Of a stretch of DNA of 26,516 nt, positions 2,630 to 26,260 are shown one piece after another. The position numbers were made by a program, and so were the translations under genes. The notes below the pieces were generated by a model. That model made no database searches. It was not told the DNA's origin and worked only from the letters and a program-made list of their open reading frames with translations. The DNA lies in IMG/VR virus record IMGVR_UViG_3300022074_000316, positions 1-26,516 of that record; one strand, 5' to 3'. This DNA is from a virus. Positions within the stretch are counted from its first letter, which is position 1. The number at the start of each line of letters is the position of its first letter.

Positions 2630-4807
2630 ATGCTACAAAAAATAGGTTTTCAGCCTGGAATAAATAAACAAGTTACAGCCACGGGAGCAGAGCAACAGTG
2701 GATAGATTGTGATAATGTTAGATTTAGATATGGTACACCTGAAAAGATAGGTGGCTGGAAACAATTAGGTGATGATAAATTAACTGGTGCAGGTAGAGGT
2801 CTTCATCACTTTGTAAATAGTTTAGCTAGAAAGTATGCAATTATTGGAACAAACAGAATTTTATACGCATACTCAGGTGGTGTGTTTTATGACATACATC
2901 CAATCAAATCTACAAACACTCTTACAAGTGCATTCACCACGACTAACGGATCATCAACTGTTACAATAACTTTTGGTAGTGATCACGGTATATCTGCACA
3001 AGATATAATTTTATTAGATAATTTTTCTACTATAACTAATTCTGATTTTGCATCTGCAAATTTTGATAACAAAAAATTTATGGTAACAACTGTACCATCT
3101 TCAACAACTATTACTATTACAATGGCATCAAACGAATCAGGATCTGGTGCAACAACATCAGGTGGTATTAGAGTACAACACTACTACCCTGTAGGACCCG
3201 CTGTACAAGCACAAGGTTTTGGTTGGTCACTTGGATCATGGGGTGGAGAAGTAGCTGGTGAACCTACTACAACATTAACTAATGGTATTAATAGTTCTGT
3301 TACAACAGGAATTATATTAGGAGATGTATCACAGTTTCCAGACTCAGGTACAAACTTTATAAAAATAAACAGTGAGGAAATATCTTATACAGGTATAACA
3401 AGTAATGAACTTACTGGTGTTACAAGAGGTGTTCGAGGAACAACAGCAGCATCACATAATGGTGGCGATGCAGTTACTAGCACAACAAACTTTGTAGCAT
3501 GGGGTGAGGCAGCATCTGGAGACTTAGTATTAGAACCTGGTATGTGGTCACTAGATAATTTTGGTGATAAAGCTATTTGTTTAATTCACGACAGTGCTGT
3601 ATTCGAATGGAACTCTGCAGCAACAAATGCAACAGATAATAGAGCAACAATTATAACTGGTGCACCAACAGCGTCACGTCACATGTTAGTATCTACTCCT
3701 GATAGACACTTAGTATTTTTTGGAACAGAAACAACTATAGGAACACCTACAACACAAGATGATATGTTTGTTAGATTCTCAGACCAAGAGGATATAAATA
3801 CTTATACACCTACAGCAACCAATACAGCGGGCACACAAAGACTGGCCGATGGATCACAAATTAGAGGAGCCATCAGAGGTCGTGATGCAATTTATGTTTG
3901 GACTGATACAGCATTATTTACTCAACGTTTTGTTGGTCAACCGTTTACCTTTGCGTTCGCACAAGTTGGAACTAACTGTGGACTCGTTGGACAGAATGCA
4001 TGTGTAGAGGTCGATGGTTCTGCATACTGGATGTCAGAAAATGGTTTTTTTAGATATGCTGGTAAATTAGAATCACTACCATGTTTAGTAGAAGATTTTG
4101 TATATGATGATATAAATTTAGAATCTGGTAATCAAATGGTGTCTGCTGGATTAAACAATCTTTTTGGTGAAGTCATATGGTTTTATCCAACTTCCTCATC
4201 ATCTGTTGTAAACAGAATGGTTGCATATAACTATTTTGACTCTTCACCACAAAGACCTGTTTGGACAAATGGAACATTAGCTAGAACAATGTGGGAGGAC
4301 TCTGCAGTATTTGGTAGTCCTCATGCAACAGAATATAGTGCAGGGGTAGATACATCTTTTGATGTTGTAGGAAACACGGAAGGTTCTACAATATACTATC
4401 AACACGAAACAGGAACAGATCAAGTTCAAGGTGGTGCAACAACTGCAATTGTTGCAAGTATTGAATCAGGAGACTTTGATATTACACAAAGAATAGTAGG
4501 TAATCAAATGACTGGAATAGCTGATACAAGAGGTGATGGTGAATTTATAATGAAGATTAGGAGATTTATACCAGACTTTATATCTCAAACAGGAGCAACT
4601 AGAATCACTTTAAATTTAAGAAACTTTCCAAATGACTCACAAAGTGGTTCATCATTAGGCCCATTTGACATAACATCCAGCACAAAAAAAGTAGATACAA
4701 GAGCTCGTGCACGTGCTATAGCTCTTAAAATATCTAATACATCTTCTAATCAAAGTTGGAAGTTGGGAACATTTAGATTAGATATACAACCAGACGGGAG
4801 ACGATAA
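2630..4807 (+). CDS. P22 gp10-like tail / packaged-DNA stabilisation protein
   Basis: A 725-residue beta-rich protein. The N-terminus (QWIDCDNVRFRYGTPEKIGGW), the propeller-like repeats in the middle (RGRDAIYVWTDTALF, NACVEVDGSAYWMSENGFFRY) and the C-terminal strand pattern ending WKLGTFRLDIQPDGRR resemble the phage stabilisation family represented by P22 gp10, which sits between portal and tail needle and helps keep DNA packaged. Two modules appear inserted near the N-terminus: residues about 97-183 (Thr/Ser-rich) and about 211-285. The second contains the EEISYTG and GVTRGVRGTTAASHNGG pattern seen in many phage tail proteins. GAGG at 2622-2625 precedes the ATG with short spacing. The next gene starts inside its stop (TAATG). 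Assignment is by pattern, not alignment. Confidence 0.55.
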   Translation: MLQKIGFQPGINKQVTATGAEQQWIDCDNVRFRYGTPEKIGGWKQLGDDKLTGAGRGLHHFVNSLARKYAIIGTNRILYAYSGGVFYDIHPIKSTNTLTSAFTTTNGSSTVTITFGSDHGISAQDIILLDNFSTITNSDFASANFDNKKFMVTTVPSSTTITITMASNESGSGATTSGGIRVQHYYPVGPAVQAQGFGWSLGSWGGEVAGEPTTTLTNGINSSVTTGIILGDVSQFPDSGTNFIKINSEEISYTGITSNELTGVTRGVRGTTAASHNGGDAVTSTTNFVAWGEAASGDLVLEPGMWSLDNFGDKAICLIHDSAVFEWNSAATNATDNRATIITGAPTASRHMLVSTPDRHLVFFGTETTIGTPTTQDDMFVRFSDQEDINTYTPTATNTAGTQRLADGSQIRGAIRGRDAIYVWTDTALFTQRFVGQPFTFAFAQVGTNCGLVGQNACVEVDGSAYWMSENGFFRYAGKLESLPCLVEDFVYDDINLESGNQMVSAGLNNLFGEVIWFYPTSSSSVVNRMVAYNYFDSSPQRPVWTNGTLARTMWEDSAVFGSPHATEYSAGVDTSFDVVGNTEGSTIYYQHETGTDQVQGGATTAIVASIESGDFDITQRIVGNQMTGIADTRGDGEFIMKIRRFIPDFISQTGATRITLNLRNFPNDSQSGSSLGPFDITSSTKKVDTRARARAIALKISNTSSNQSWKLGTFRLDIQPDGRR

Positions 4808-7177: not shown

Positions 7178-8061
7178 TGGCAATAACAGAAACACGTAAT
7201 TTACCCGCACAGTTTATAGAAGATCTTGGTAAAGATTATGCAAAGCAGTTAACGGCTACAACTGCAATACCAGTAGATACTTCTAAGTTTGCACCAACAG
7301 TTGCGGCGCAAGATGCATTACAAACACAAGCTGCAACATTAGCAGGAACTGGTGTTGGATCTTTTCAACCATTTATTACAGCAGCACAACAAGCAGCAGC
7401 AGATGCAGGCACAACCATAGGTGGTATATCTAGTTTAACAGGAGCACCTACGGCAGCACAAACAGCAGCATTTACATCACCATTTCAACAACAAGTTATT
7501 GATACAACACTCGCAGAATTTGATAGACAAAAAGCTATTAACGAACAGAACATTAGAGATCAACAAGCACAACTAGGTGTGTTAGGCGCAGGTAGATCAG
7601 GTGTACAATTATCTGAGTTTCAAACACAATCAGGAAGAGACAGAGCTGCATTAGAAGCACAGTTAAGACAGCAAGGGTTTCAACAAGCACAAGCAGCTAG
7701 ACAACAAGACATTCAAAATAGATTTGGTTTAGCTCAAGCACAATCAGGTCTAGGACAGTTTCAAACAGGGTTAGCACAACAAGTTCCAGCATTACAAAGA
7801 GCAGATGTTTCAACACTTGGTCAAGTAGGTGCAGCGCAACAAGCACAAAGACAAGCGGTGCTAGATGCACAAAGACAAGGAGCAAGAACCGCGGCCTATG
7901 AACCATTAGAGAGATTAGGATTCTTTGGTCAAGGTGTAACTGGATTGATGGGTGGTTATCCTGCACAGTATCAATTCACACAAACACCACCAGCATCACC
8001 ACTACAAACTGCATTAGGTTTAGGTACAGGACTAGCAGGAATATTCGGAGCATTAAAATAA
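7177..8061 (+). CDS. Gln/Ala-rich putative DNA-ejection protein
   Basis: A 294-residue protein, very rich in Gln and Ala, with a long predicted helical centre: FDRQKAINEQNIRDQQAQL, then GVLGAGRSGVQLSE, then repeated Q-x-x-x-A heptad-like helices (RAALEAQLRQQGFQQAQAAR). The pattern helix, then small GxxGxGRxG linker, then helix is common in predicted internal or ejected proteins of podovirus-type phages, where Ala/Gln-rich proteins leave the capsid with DNA. The C-terminus (LQTALGLGTGLAGIFGALK) is hydrophobic and Gly-rich and could insert into a membrane. ATG 7177 lies in the previous stop (TAATG). The family name is not certain. Confidence 0.55.
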   Translation: MAITETRNLPAQFIEDLGKDYAKQLTATTAIPVDTSKFAPTVAAQDALQTQAATLAGTGVGSFQPFITAAQQAAADAGTTIGGISSLTGAPTAAQTAAFTSPFQQQVIDTTLAEFDRQKAINEQNIRDQQAQLGVLGAGRSGVQLSEFQTQSGRDRAALEAQLRQQGFQQAQAARQQDIQNRFGLAQAQSGLGQFQTGLAQQVPALQRADVSTLGQVGAAQQAQRQAVLDAQRQGARTAAYEPLERLGFFGQGVTGLMGGYPAQYQFTQTPPASPLQTALGLGTGLAGIFGALK

Positions 8062-8062
8062 A

Positions 8063-9394
8063 ATGATAAACCGTATTTTTAAAAGACCTATGTTTAGAAT
8101 GGGAGGTCGAAGTGATGATGGTATTATGTCATTGAGACCTGGGTTTCAAGAAGGTGGTTTTGGAAGTCAAACAGCACAAAGATTTGGTTATAATTTAGCA
8201 AGAGGAGCTGATTTTTTAAAAAGAAAATTACCAACAGCAACTGGTGTGGTTACAAATTTATTTAGAGGCACGGGTCAACCACTAGCTGGAACTATTGGTC
8301 CAACTGCAACTACAGGCATTGGAACTCAAATTGCAGCGTCCGCTGCCCCTGTTTTAGCTGTAGCAGCGTTGGCCGATGAAAACTATCCTGTTTATCCAAA
8401 AGGACATCCAAATGAGGGTGAAAGAATGTCTTTAGAAGATGCACAAGACACTTTAGAAAAATCTGGTGGTGCTATTAACATAGCAACAGAAAAAGGTACA
8501 CAAGCTGGAGGTGCAGGGGATTTATCGGGAGAAGCAGCTATGTTTGATCTAGGTTTACCAAAAGAATCTGGTGGACTAAAAGATGAATTTGGTAATTTAA
8601 ACTACCCAACTAAACGTAATTTTGATTCACCACAAGCAATTGAAGTATCTAAACAAATTGGTTTATTACCAGAGGATCCTGATGATAATGGAAATAATGA
8701 CGATAATGGTAATAAAGGTTCTAAGTTTGATAAACAAGCAGATTTAAAAACTATCTATGAAGATTTACTTCCAATGATGAAAGAAACTTTAGATGATCCA
8801 GATGATAAGAGGAGACAATTATATACACAACTAGCTCAGTTTGGAGCTAACTTACTTGCTCAACCTGGTGGAGATTTAGTTGGTGCCGTAGGAAAAGCAG
8901 CAGCTAAACCAATCGAAGGTGTTGGTAAAGTATTAGCAAGAGATGCTGACATTGATAGAGAGGCTAAAATACTTGCACTAAAAACTGCAATCGATAGAAC
9001 AACTCCAGGTCAAACAGGTAAACTTGTGCAAGATTTAAGAGCCTTAAACTTCTCTGATGATGAAATTATGAAATATTTAGAAGCAAGCAAACCTGGTGCG
9101 GGGCAGAGAATTGCTGTTAAAGCAGGGGATATTGATAATTTAAAAGAAGATTTAACTAATGATTTTAAAATAAAAAGAAATGCAGGGGCAGCAGCCAGAA
9201 CAATGTATGAATCTATTTTAGAAGGAGTGGATGAAAGACAATACTCTGAACTTCCTAAAAGTAAAGGTGATAGAGAAGATGGAAAATATTATGTATCACC
9301 AGATGGCAAAGTAGGAAGATACGATGCTGAAAAAGGTACTTTAATAAAACCAGGAGAAAAAGGTTTTACAGGTTCAAAAAAGAAAAAGTCATAG
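8063..9394 (+). CDS. putative virion/ejection protein with Asp-Asn-Gly repeat
   Basis: A 443-residue protein. The N-terminus (FKRPMFRMGGRSDDGIMSLRPGF) is a motif I associate with marine phage structural proteins, here followed by a Gly/Ala-rich stretch (AASAAPVLAVAALA, about 91-104). Residues about 204-218 hold a short duplication of the unit DDNGN, whose D-x-D-x-N-G spacing resembles calcium-binding loops. The middle third is helical and the C-terminus is basic (GEKGFTGSKKKKS). It sits between the Gln-rich protein and the giant 1473-residue protein, the position of ejection proteins in P22-like gene order. The start ATG lies 1 nt after the previous stop. The function is inferred from context only. 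Confidence 0.55.
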   Translation: MINRIFKRPMFRMGGRSDDGIMSLRPGFQEGGFGSQTAQRFGYNLARGADFLKRKLPTATGVVTNLFRGTGQPLAGTIGPTATTGIGTQIAASAAPVLAVAALADENYPVYPKGHPNEGERMSLEDAQDTLEKSGGAINIATEKGTQAGGAGDLSGEAAMFDLGLPKESGGLKDEFGNLNYPTKRNFDSPQAIEVSKQIGLLPEDPDDNGNNDDNGNKGSKFDKQADLKTIYEDLLPMMKETLDDPDDKRRQLYTQLAQFGANLLAQPGGDLVGAVGKAAAKPIEGVGKVLARDADIDREAKILALKTAIDRTTPGQTGKLVQDLRALNFSDDEIMKYLEASKPGAGQRIAVKAGDIDNLKEDLTNDFKIKRNAGAAARTMYESILEGVDERQYSELPKSKGDREDGKYYVSPDGKVGRYDAEKGTLIKPGEKGFTGSKKKKS

Positions 9395-14045: not shown

Positions 14046-14521
14046 TGAAACTTTCACGAAACTTTTCTCTTGCAGAGTTAATCAAATCAGATACAGCCAT
14101 TAGGCATGGTATAGATAATAACCCTAACGCAGACCAGATAGAAAAATTAAAATTACTTTGTGAAAATATTTTACAACCAGTGCGTGACCACTTCGGCAGA
14201 GTAACGGTGACCAGCTGTTTTCGGTCCCCTGAGCTGTGCGTAAAAATTAATTCGTCGATCAATAGCCAACATACCCGTGCGGAGGCGGTCGACTTCGAAT
14301 GTATGGGTACAAGCAACGCTGAAGTCTTTGACTGGATTAAACAAAACCTAGATTGGGATCAAATGATACTTGAGTTCTACACTCCTGGTGAACCAAATTC
14401 GGGGTGGGTCCACTGTAGCTGGGTTTCTGAGAATCCACGTAAACAATTATTAAGAGCTTACCGAGAAGATGGTAAAACTAGATACAAACCTATTATTGGT
14501 AACGCTGTAGACTTGGACTAA
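14045..14521 (+). CDS. M15-family peptidase endolysin
   Basis: A 158-residue peptidase of the M15 (VanY / D-Ala-D-Ala carboxypeptidase-like) family that would cut peptide crosslinks of peptidoglycan. The zinc site is visible: SQHTRAEAVDFE gives H76 and D83, and GWVHCSW gives H123; DQMILEF supplies the catalytic E110. The usual Gly in SxHxxGxAxD is Ala here. FSLAELIKSDTAIRHGIDN at the N-terminus matches phage M15 endolysins. I use ATG 14045 rather than the TTG at 14042 because it gives the TGATG overlap with the holin gene. There is no signal peptide, consistent with holin-dependent release. The gene has a GC-rich patch at about 14170-14330. Its stop overlaps the stop of the opposing helicase gene. 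Confidence 0.85.
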   Translation: MKLSRNFSLAELIKSDTAIRHGIDNNPNADQIEKLKLLCENILQPVRDHFGRVTVTSCFRSPELCVKINSSINSQHTRAEAVDFECMGTSNAEVFDWIKQNLDWDQMILEFYTPGEPNSGWVHCSWVSENPRKQLLRAYREDGKTRYKPIIGNAVDLD

Positions 14522-14527
14522 ATCCAA
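14513..14527. other. small inverted repeat over two convergent stops
   Basis: TTGGA (14513-14517) and TCCAA (14523-14527) form a perfect 5-bp inverted repeat whose loop, CTAAA, contains the endolysin TAA and, on the other strand, the helicase TAG. It is too weak and lacks a T-tract to be called a terminator with confidence, but it is the only structured element at this convergent junction, where no intergenic space exists. Confidence 0.35.
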
Positions 14528-15948
14528 TCTCGTAATTCTTCACCCATAACTTCAGATGCAATATTAATTTTTTTACGTAAAGACTTAACTATCTTTTCAT
14601 CAACAGTATCTTCTGCAATTAAATCTATATAGGTTACATTTTTCTTTTGTCCGATACGGTGTGCTCTATCTTCTGATTGCAGTCTTTTCTCTAAATCATA
14701 ACCATTAGAATAATAGATAACAGTATTTGCTTCTGTTAGTGTGATACCATAACCACCAGTAGAAGGTGTACCTATCAAAAATCTACACTCATTATCGTTT
14801 TGAAATCTACGTATGTTATCTTGTCTTTCATCTTGTGGTGTTAACCCATAATAATCGACCACGGATCTTGGACCATATTTTTTTTCAATAGCATCTTTTA
14901 TATCCTGCACATCTCTTTGCCAATATGCCCATATAATAGCTTTGTTTTCTGTTTCTTCTAATACATCTATAAGCTCATCTAGTCTGTTATTTTTTATAGT
15001 TTGCACGGTGCCATCGTCAGCAACAAAATGACCACAGGTTATTTGTTGTAATCGCATCAACTGTGTTAACACAGTAACTGTAGAAGTAACCTTACCATTT
15101 AAGTTTGCAATAGCCGTCTTTCTCATTTGTTCGTATAAATTTTCTTGTTCTTTAGTTAGAGCCACGTGTCGTTTCATGTATATTTTTTCAGGCAAATCTA
15201 GACAATCTTCTTTTAATACTCTGTAAGAAAAGCCTTTTAACCTATCCGATAGTTCACCTAAGTTTTGAAACTTATGCACAGTTTGTATTGATCTACCTCT
15301 TACGTGTATTGTTTTCATAATGGCATATCTATTTCTAAACGCATACCAAGAATTAAAGTTTAAGAGCCAAGGATCAAGGAACTCGCACTGTGTGTATAAA
15401 TCCAAAGGATTTTTAGTTACAGGCGAACCTGTTAAGATTCGCCTATATTTAGCCATAGGAGCGAGAGCTAAAACGTTCTTAGTTCTTTTTGCTGATGGAT
15501 TTTTTATTGTAGTAGATTCATCTAAAGCCATCAAAGTTCTATGTGATCTTAAAAATTTTTCTGCAAACTTAACACCTTTGCTTGTAGACAACGCTTCTAC
15601 ATTCATTATAAAAATATGTAGGTCAGTGCCCAAATCAAATAAATTATTTAATTTAGTTTCTTGTTTTTTAGTTATGTTTGGTTGCCACAAGGTTGTAACG
15701 TTTTCTATATGATTAGGTAGATGTGTTGGTAGTTCTTGTTCATGCCATGTTTTTACAACACCTTTAGGCGCTATAATTAAAGCACCGTTTATTTTACCTT
15801 GATCATAAAGCATGGCCATATTATCTATTAATACTTTTGTTTTACCCGTACCCATTTCCATAAAATATCCATAGGTTTCTTTGTTCCACGACTTTTCTAA
15901 AGCAGTCAACTGATGCTTGTATGGCTTTAACTTAAATTTATAATCCAT
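14518..15948 (-). CDS. SNF2-type superfamily 2 DNA helicase/translocase
   Basis: A 476-residue ATPase, the only leftward gene in the window. Motifs in order: Q-region YKHQLTALEK; Walker A MGTGKT (32-37); ALIIAPKGVVKTWHEQ (motif Ia); DEST in LMALDESTTIKNP (motif II, D143/E144); ILTGSPVTKNP (motif III); a helicase C-domain with AIIWAYWQRDVQDI; IGTPSTGGYGITLTEA (motif V); QSEDRAHRIGQ (motif VI, characteristic of SNF2). Such proteins move along duplex DNA and may help replication, recombination or removal of bound proteins. It is transcribed from a minus-strand promoter at 15969-15997 with a leader of about 14 nt and only a weak GAAAGA site. Its 3' end shares bases with the endolysin stop. Family certain, biological role inferred. 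Confidence 0.9.
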   Translation of the reverse strand: MDYKFKLKPYKHQLTALEKSWNKETYGYFMEMGTGKTKVLIDNMAMLYDQGKINGALIIAPKGVVKTWHEQELPTHLPNHIENVTTLWQPNITKKQETKLNNLFDLGTDLHIFIMNVEALSTSKGVKFAEKFLRSHRTLMALDESTTIKNPSAKRTKNVLALAPMAKYRRILTGSPVTKNPLDLYTQCEFLDPWLLNFNSWYAFRNRYAIMKTIHVRGRSIQTVHKFQNLGELSDRLKGFSYRVLKEDCLDLPEKIYMKRHVALTKEQENLYEQMRKTAIANLNGKVTSTVTVLTQLMRLQQITCGHFVADDGTVQTIKNNRLDELIDVLEETENKAIIWAYWQRDVQDIKDAIEKKYGPRSVVDYYGLTPQDERQDNIRRFQNDNECRFLIGTPSTGGYGITLTEANTVIYYSNGYDLEKRLQSEDRAHRIGQKKNVTYIDLIAEDTVDEKIVKSLRKKINIASEVMGEELRDWI

Positions 15949-25550: not shown

Positions 25551-25749
25551 AATAGTTAATGGTGTATGCCCAACATGCGAAGAGTATACAATGTTGGTAA
25601 GCCTAACTAGAGAATACTTTAGATGCATTACATGCGGTGCAGATCTTGAACAACATGTAAATGGATGCATAAGTTACATACCAAGATTAGAAAAAACAAC
25701 ACTACAATCTGTAGTTGACGGATACTTTAACAATGGCAAAGAAAAGTAG
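25516..25749 (+). CDS. zinc-ribbon phage protein
   Basis: A 77-residue protein with two CxxC pairs: VCPTCEEY (C18, C21) and FRCITCGADLEQ (C37, C40), giving a classic zinc ribbon. The remainder, HVNGCISYIPRLEK and LQSVVDGYFNN, looks like a beta hairpin and a helix. Small zinc ribbons of this type in phages may bind nucleic acid or a host transcription protein; no target can be read from the sequence. It overlaps the basic 39-residue gene at its start and the next small gene by 17 nt at its end, a density typical of conserved accessory clusters. Confidence 0.75.
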   Translation: MTEKKSIKIHTEIVNGVCPTCEEYTMLVSLTREYFRCITCGADLEQHVNGCISYIPRLEKTTLQSVVDGYFNNGKEK

Positions 25750-25864
25750 ATTTGGCGTAAATACATATATAGAAAGATCAAAACCTAAGATTGGTAGACA
25801 TAAAAAACGTATGAACAAATCTGAAAAACGTAGCTATAAAAAATACCGAGGACAAGGTCGTTGA
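25733..25864 (+). CDS. basic 43-residue conserved phage protein
   Basis: ATG 25733 to TGA 25862-25864; 43 residues, below common length cut-offs. The product begins MAKKSRFGVNTYIERSKPK, followed by GRHKKRMNKSEKRSYKKYRG and QGR. GRHKKRxNKxEKRxxKxYRGQGR is a pattern I remember from cyanophage and other marine phage small proteins. It is highly positively charged, so nucleic-acid binding is likely. No Shine-Dalgarno is evident. Its final bases are shared with the -35 box of the promoter at 25861, so transcription of the downstream genes begins immediately after this gene. Confidence 0.65.
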   Translation: MAKKSRFGVNTYIERSKPKIGRHKKRMNKSEKRSYKKYRGQGR

Positions 25865-25889
25865 CAAACGTCAAATAATATCCTATATT
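25861..25889 (+). promoter_or_regulatory. strong sigma70-type promoter
   Basis: TTGACA at 25861-25866, a 17-bp spacer, TATATT at 25884-25889 (5 of 6). Same boxes and spacing as the helicase promoter on the other strand at 15997-15969. The -35 is part of an inverted repeat TTGAC-AAAC-GTCAA (25861-25874), a possible operator. Predicted transcription start is about 25895, the first G of GGUG. Confidence 0.75.
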
Positions 25890-25893
25890 ATAT

Positions 25894-25925
25894 TGGTGCT
25901 GGGCATCACCATTAATAACTGCCCA
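25894..25925 (+). promoter_or_regulatory. predicted 5'-terminal H-type RNA pseudoknot
   Basis: Stem 1 is TGGTG (25894-25898) with CACCA (25907-25911). Its loop contains TGGGC (25900-25904), which pairs with GCCCA (25921-25925) as stem 2. The linkers are 1, 2 and 9 nt, and the 9-nt linker is AU-rich, as in compact H-type pseudoknots. The fold would begin at or one base before the predicted transcription start and end 8 nt before AGGAG (25934-25938), the ribosome site of the gene at 25945. It may protect the mRNA end, bind a ligand or regulate translation. No class recognised. Confidence 0.55.
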
Positions 25926-25944
25926 CAACATACAGGAGAAACAA

Positions 25945-26100
25945 ATGGATAAAATGTTAGAAAAATCAAATGTTCTAGCTCAACTATTAACTATATCAGA
26001 TACAAAACTTTTTCTTCAAGAAAAAGAAATTAAGTTGAGAGAAAAATTAGAAAAGTTAAATGATAAGATAGAAGATGAAAGAAAAAATAATAACACTTAA
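25945..26100 (+). CDS. 51-residue coiled-coil microprotein
   Basis: ATG 25945 with AGGAG at 25934-25938 (6-nt spacing), ending at TAA 26098-26100. It is the first gene of the transcript from the promoter at 25861 and lies just behind the predicted pseudoknot. The product begins MDKMLEKSNVLAQLLTISDT, followed by a charged helix (EKEIKLREKLEKLNDKIEDER) with heptad-like Leu/Ile spacing, so it probably dimerises. Family unknown. It overlaps the next gene by 26 nt in a different frame. A strong promoter, a structured leader and a good ribosome site suggest high or controlled expression. Confidence 0.7.
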   Translation: MDKMLEKSNVLAQLLTISDTKLFLQEKEIKLREKLEKLNDKIEDERKNNNT

Positions 26101-26260
26101 ACCAAAAGGCATATCACAGAAACAATGGTCTAATCTATTATTAGAATTAAATCTTGTAAAAAAAGCGTGGAGACCGTATGGTGTTGATATACAAATAAAT
26201 GCACCTGGTTTAAAAAATATTTTAAAGTGGGGTACAAAATCTTACGATGCAAAAGAGTAA
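26075..26260 (+). CDS. small conserved-looking phage protein (61 aa)
   Basis: A 61-residue basic protein: MKEKIITLKPKGISQKQWSN, LLLELNLVKKAWRPYGVDIQ, then APGLKNILKWGTKSYDA. The KGISQKQWSNLLLELN helix and the PYGVDIQINAPGLKNI strand-turn pattern look like a compact folded domain, and I recall similar unnamed proteins in marine phages. The start lies inside the preceding microprotein gene, with GATAGAAG as a weak ribosome site. The stop is followed 8 nt later by the next ATG. Function unknown. Confidence 0.6.
   Translation: MKEKIITLKPKGISQKQWSNLLLELNLVKKAWRPYGVDIQINAPGLKNILKWGTKSYDAKE

Follow-up and report, generated by a model that had tools for sequence, protein, structure and literature searches.

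A probable 5'-terminal pseudoknot in the early mRNA leader of phages related to pelagiphages

Does the short DNA between a strong phage promoter and its first gene encode an RNA that folds at the very 5' end of the message, and if so, what might such a fold do? The locus lies near the end of the window, by which we mean the whole stretch of DNA analysed (26,516 nucleotides of IMG/VR record IMGVR_UViG_3300022074_000316), a linear 26.5-kb piece of DNA from an uncultured phage that is kin to the pelagiphages. The kinship shows in the DNA polymerase, with 62% identity to the HTVC027P enzyme and 53% to the HTVC023P one, and in the replication genes, which match those of HTVC027P in kind and order. 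The gene array runs on the plus strand apart from a helicase gene (phrog_62; window 14518-15948, minus strand). A small protein encoded upstream of the leader turns up in 41 records of annotated phages, and 36 of these are phages of Pelagibacter, an ocean bacterium. The nearest relatives of the window's phage group are the HTVC023P-type pelagiphages. This type ranks with the most abundant viruses known from the ocean, and in one of its members the early genes are all without known function (PMC12753301).

The original prediction placed a promoter, TTGACA-17-TATATT, within 25861-25944, and every one of its elements is found there (Table 1). With 11 of the 12 consensus bases it outscores every other promoter match in the 2.6-kb end region; the eight others reach 9/12 each, and the total number of matches is not above chance. 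The sequence TATCCTATATT is common in promoters of window-related phages. The stop codon, TGA, of the 43-aa basic ORF falls within the -35 box; this basic gene is conserved and flags the equivalent site in all relatives. A dyad over the -10 box is conserved too, yet broken in L003 and L007 (TAGATT), and is possibly an operator or just promoter sequence. Counting from the -10 box, stem 1 has its first G at the sixth base in both the window and a diverged relative, L200, from which we infer that the helix would occupy the first nucleotides of the transcript.

Table 1. Positions of the leader, its promoter and the neighbouring genes (window coordinates unless a contig is named)
Feature	Coordinates	Strand	Remarks
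Basic ORF, 43 aa (MAKKSRFGVNTYIERSKPKIGRHKKRMNKSEKRSYKKYRGQGR)	25733..25864	+	ORF list gives an upstream TTG start
-35 box TTGACA	25861..25866	+	present in 10/10 type A contigs and in L200
7-bp dyad ATAATAT-CCT-ATATTAT	25875..25891	+	spans the -10 box
-10 box TATATT	25884..25889	+	17-nt spacer from the -35 box
Stem 1, 5' strand UGGUG	25894..25898	+	U25894 possibly outside the transcript
Predicted transcription start (GG)	25895	+	placed by distance to the -10 box
Loop 1, 1 nt, C	25899	+	crosses stem 2; C in L200 too
Stem 2, 5' strand UGGGCA	25900..25905	+	
Stem 1, 3' strand CACCA	25907..25911	+	
Loop 3 (UUAAUAAC)	25912..25919	+	crosses stem 1; UAAUAAC retained in L200
Stem 2, 3' strand UGCCCA	25920..25925	+	
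Shine-Dalgarno AGGAG	25934..25938	+	6 nt before ATG 25945; unpaired
Microprotein, 51 aa, coiled-coil-like	25945..26100	+	real gene: homologues to ~45% identity
Conserved protein, 61 aa (MKEKIITLKPKGISQKQW...)	26075..26260	+	overlaps the microprotein gene
ORF, 86 aa	26227..26487	+	next in the operon
Alpha-CTD-domain protein, ~156 aa	L002:825-1292, L087:1275-1745, L089:1023-1493	+	first gene after the promoter

Downstream of the promoter, TGGTG/CACCA and TGGGC/GCCCA interlock as an H-type pseudoknot 8 nt before AGGAG, exactly where the original prediction had it. The predicted linkers of 1, 2 and 9 nt need amending: the interlock stands, and an extra pair, A25905-U25920, extends stem 2 to 6 bp, so that the loops are better given as 1, 1 and 8 nt, beside a stem 1 of 4-5 bp. 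The two helices comprise 11 pairs, all standard (Watson-Crick or GU) in every variant. Among the 13 Watson-Crick H-type pseudoknots of 5+5 bp found on both strands of the window, the leader knot alone (two registers of one knot) has at least six G+C pairs, and a dinucleotide-shuffled window yields 0.017 knots with at least seven G+C pairs per strand, or about one in 60 windows. Shuffling the leader itself produces any such pseudoknot in 0.33% of cases and one as GC-rich in 0.01% (about 1 in 10,000). Knots of the leader's geometry arise in 17 of 20,000 shuffled copies of the window leader and in 27 of 20,000 for L200, and the pseudoknot energy is reached in none of 1000 shuffles of either. Nested folding of the leader is unremarkable (z = 0.22). 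The pseudoknot exceeds what chance would give for its composition.

Nine further IMG/VR contigs, some of them near-duplicates of one another, match the 19 nt of stem 1 and loop exactly, and a 32-nt core is identical across these ten type A contigs (window included), in flanking DNA that is often 59-90% identical. Conservation sets in at TTGACA and ends at AGGAGAAA; in the aligned block from CGTTGACAA to CAGGAGAAA variation is confined to three columns of the spacer, one base of the -10 box and two transitions past stem 2. This block is 94-100% identical, far above much of the 600-bp flanks, and in L002 the downstream flank is unrelated. Spacer and -10 dyad are conserved nearly as well as the knot. 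With stems that never vary, the type A contigs have no covariation and cannot test the pairing. The loops are invariant too, and such extreme conservation of loops and stems would also suit a binding site. L001 and L008 share an identical leader while their upstream DNA is 60% identical, so recombination at the leader site is evident.

A test of the pairing comes from divergence. A covariance model of the leader recovered at least one diverged member, at L200 2121-2175 (E = 0.29 by itself), where the order is basic gene with its stop in the -35 box, TTGACA, 17-nt spacer, TATACT, leader, 102-aa gene, microprotein gene and 61-aa gene; this shared genomic place makes the L200 leader an orthologue of the window leader. 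Its stem 1 reads GGUUC/GAACC, against UGGUG/CACCA in the window. In a junction-anchored alignment three of the five stem 1 pairs are altered on both sides and all 11 pairs stand (100% paired), whereas sliding controls, with one strand displaced by 1-3 columns, give 27-50% paired and at most one double change. Anchored at the 5' end, the same stem 1 difference amounts to one double substitution and the insertion, on both strands, of a single base pair. Pair shuffles on the two sequences, a weak control with n = 2, gave 57/500. Stem 2 differs by one C-G pair that has become U-G, with pairing kept and no double change. The original prediction had looked to a covariance-model search for covarying pairs in stem 2, and this expectation is borne out weakly, because the double changes lie in stem 1 and stem 2 shows a single-sided compatible change. 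Given that stem letters have changed in L200 and pairing has been kept, the knot is probably a real RNA structure; the compensatory change supports one in a single comparison of two sequence types, so the stem 1 covariation may reflect one evolutionary episode.

The same comparison bears on two readings that do without an RNA fold. According to one of these, the block acts as DNA, as an operator or a conserved piece of promoter, and a regulator binds its interlocked inverted repeats (+1 to +31) together with the -10 dyad. The near-equal conservation of spacer and dyad suits such a site, as do the 20 bp that separate the stem 2 half-sites and the flanking recombination that could spread the block. 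In L200, however, the letters of stem 1 are altered on both strands, and the C to T change on one side of stem 2, which leaves a G-U pair in RNA, breaks the DNA palindrome and not the RNA helix, which favours RNA; moreover, the largest relative (39.7 kb) has the full stem 2 palindrome only once. We regard a DNA operator as improbable. The other reading holds that a promoter block has recently spread, that its inverted repeats are accidental and that RNA function is absent. Ten identical cores and the signs of recombination in L001/L008 are what it would expect, but it leaves unexplained why a diverged leader pairs perfectly and why the knot is so improbable by composition, and we consider it very doubtful.

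What, then, does the leader precede? The original prediction had it control a 51-residue microprotein and the genes after it. The microprotein is indeed the first gene in the window, but control specific to it is too narrow a claim, given L002 and L200. Three kinds of first gene follow the knot: in the window and most relatives it is the microprotein gene, in L002 a gene for an RNA polymerase alpha-CTD-domain protein (PF03118, E = 1.3e-19; solved alpha-CTDs 1e-12) and in L200 one for a 102-aa protein. In the latter two contigs the microprotein gene comes later in the operon. The alpha-CTD proteins of L002 and L087 have no match in PHROG families, and the phage alpha-CTD protein is a candidate for transcription takeover. 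Between L002 and L087 the alpha-CTD gene is 88% identical in DNA; L002 has the knot, and L087 and L089, which share ATACAGGAGAAAACTAATG with it, have a short plain leader and no knot. The microprotein gene accompanies the knot in all knot contigs, even in those with another first gene. L040, L087 and L089 have the microprotein and no knot, so the two need not go together. In L040 a ParB-like gene (phrog_12305; 3714-4532, plus strand) is inserted at the leader site, and a GGGGCC-UUCG-GGCCCC hairpin (4609-4624) lies just before the microprotein ribosome site, where the pseudoknot otherwise stands.

The 61-aa gene was found at 75 loci, 31 of them with the knot (loci are redundant). In many related contigs the TTGACA...TATCCTATATT promoter runs almost leaderless into this gene, which suggests leaderless mRNAs; among the promoters in L012-L091, for example, those at L024:3632 and L047:3632 have the -10 box a few bases from the ATG of the 61-aa gene. 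Across 77 distinct leaders that follow such promoters in the relatives examined, a Watson-Crick knot of this size appears only in type A variants. Its varied downstream genes and its absence from close relatives make the knot look like a general 5' add-on and not a metabolite sensor.

Wider searches bear on how far the leader extends. DNA similarity searches in annotated phages (900-bp, 84-bp and 95-bp queries) gave no relevant match. Eight cultured pelagiphage and related records have no knot leader downstream of their promoters and no convincing match to the model, and a promoter-plus-SD pattern returned other leaders of the phage group, none with the window knot. The pattern TCCTANATTATATTGG found 106 stretches, and among the matches listed those beyond the known set were unrelated sequence. 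A stem-preserving, free-loop pattern gave, beyond the known set, only GC-rich chance matches in viral contigs and, among the matches listed, the same in genome contigs; a stem-free pattern gave two chance matches, both coding, and weak model matches (E 0.02-0.1) had no knot of their own. A literature search found no paper naming both pelagiphages and pseudoknots. The leader is probably a new structured RNA, specific to this family of phages, which are related to pelagiphages.

Leaders unrelated to this family were also seen. On the minus strand of L153 (IMGVR_UViG_3300028399_000005), near 8338-8353 and 7669-7684, two leaders beginning CCTATATTATATTGGTGG carry long GC-rich 5'-terminal inverted repeats (GGTGGTG...CACCACC and GGTGGGT...ACCCGCC) around a CCCC/GGGG hairpin. 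In L204 (5644-5724) and L213, a promoter of the same type precedes a 5' hairpin, AGTCAC-GCCAGTTGG-GTGACT, before AGGAG; it is not homologous to the window leader.

The proposal of an unrecognised riboswitch is not supported. The AGGAG ribosome site is where it was predicted to be and is free, its bases being 0.79-0.92 unpaired even without the knot, and it lies 8 nt past the knot in the window and about 14 nt past it in L200, so sequestration is not the mechanism. No intrinsic terminator was found after the leader, which leaves neither of the two expression platforms, terminator or sequestered Shine-Dalgarno, and Rfam, at gathering and permissive thresholds, returned no known aptamer family or other match for the window and L200 leaders. 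A new and very small class of metabolite riboswitch would account for the aptamer-like pattern of a conserved core (loops and stem 2) with a covarying outer helix, and for an alternative S2-extended nested hairpin of similar energy in both sequence types. A rough energy estimate of Dirks-Pierce type, in which the pseudoknot penalty is harsh, gives the knot -9.0 to -10.8 kcal/mol and the hairpin -9.1 kcal/mol in the window, and -8.0 and -7.9 kcal/mol, respectively, in L200. Loops of 1 nt, though, leave scant room for a pocket, the distance to the free ribosome site is variable, and the downstream genes, of which the first varies among contigs, have no common metabolic theme; we judge this the least probable of the readings. 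The near-equal energies in both types keep a two-state switch conceivable: a signal of the infection stage, phage protein or small molecule, would pick the knot or the S2-extended hairpin in a new kind of phage 5'-terminal pseudoknot switch and so time the early operon. Such a switch is a decidedly slim prospect. A better case, although still an unlikely one, can be made for a protein-bound translational operator like that of gene 32, our second choice, in which a phage protein, perhaps the microprotein or the 61-aa protein, would nucleate on the knot and spread or block the ribosome site. The topology is that of the T2/T4 gene 32 pseudoknot, with very similar size and loop geometry, and that knot is 5'-terminal, as the window knot is predicted to be, with an unstructured ribosome site likewise downstream; every knot contig has the microprotein gene, and the loops are invariant in type A. 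Set against these are the three contigs whose microprotein gene lacks the knot, the 61-aa gene that is common without it, the absence of a recognised single-strand binding gene after the leader, and a first cistron that varies.

Of the two further roles originally offered, translational operator and 5'-end protective structure, the latter agrees best with the data. A knot predicted at the 5' end, a ribosome site that is free, varied genes and dispensability fit best with a general 5'-terminal structure that protects or insulates early phage mRNA, a role we propose tentatively. A strong sigma-70-type promoter would produce an mRNA, starting at 25895, whose first nucleotides would fold in the cell as a compact H-type pseudoknot. 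The knot would act in cis, as a module that can be present or absent between -10 box and ribosome site. It may hide the mRNA 5' end from 5'-end-dependent decay, and it may also set the transcript start apart from the unpaired Shine-Dalgarno region, such that different first genes could be placed after it. If true, a modular 5' structure before varied early genes, one of them encoding an alpha-CTD protein, would offer a simple handle on the tuning of early mRNA, and would join the gene 32 operators as a phage pseudoknot leader of a different sort.

How does such a leader compare with known systems? The preQ1-I riboswitch, a small H-type pseudoknot aptamer, resembles the window knot in size and topology, but the window has a loop 1 of 1 nt, an unsequestered ribosome site, no queuosine gene seen and no Rfam match. 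The STAXI motif (RF01728) is a pseudoknot RNA/DNA motif near mobile-element genes (PMC2864571). It occurs in tandem with frequent UUCG loops, whereas the window knot is single-copy and has no Rfam match. Closer in form are the gene 32 leaders, which share with the window a phage H-type knot of about the same size, 5'-terminal by prediction in the window, a short loop over stem 2, an AU-rich loop over stem 1 and an unstructured ribosome site downstream. The T2 gene 32 pseudoknot has stem and loop lengths of 5 bp, 1 nt, 7 bp and 7 nt. In T4 and T2 the gene 32 operator is a pseudoknot at the 5' end, about 28 nt long (36 nt in the T2 RNA studied) and followed by an initiation region that is unstructured; the phage's single-strand binding protein nucleates on this knot (PMC535899; PMC5684407). 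The window differs from it in the spacing between knot and Shine-Dalgarno, 8 nt versus tens of nt, in the stretch between knot and start codon, CAACAUACAGGAGAAACAAAUG, which has no UUAAA/UAAA repeats, and in its operon, in which the leader serves varied first genes and no single-strand binding gene is recognised; lacking that gene and the repeats, it does not belong to the gene 32 type, and no sequence relation to the T4/T2 pseudoknot was found. In E. coli, 5'-terminal stem-loops stabilise mRNA (Emory 1992 and Bricker 1999, cited in PMC3997798). The stem-loops of the ompA and papA mRNAs open the transcript, as the window knot is predicted to do, and, like it, leave the ribosome site free; there the element is a hairpin, and here it is a pseudoknot that may stabilise its message in a similar way.
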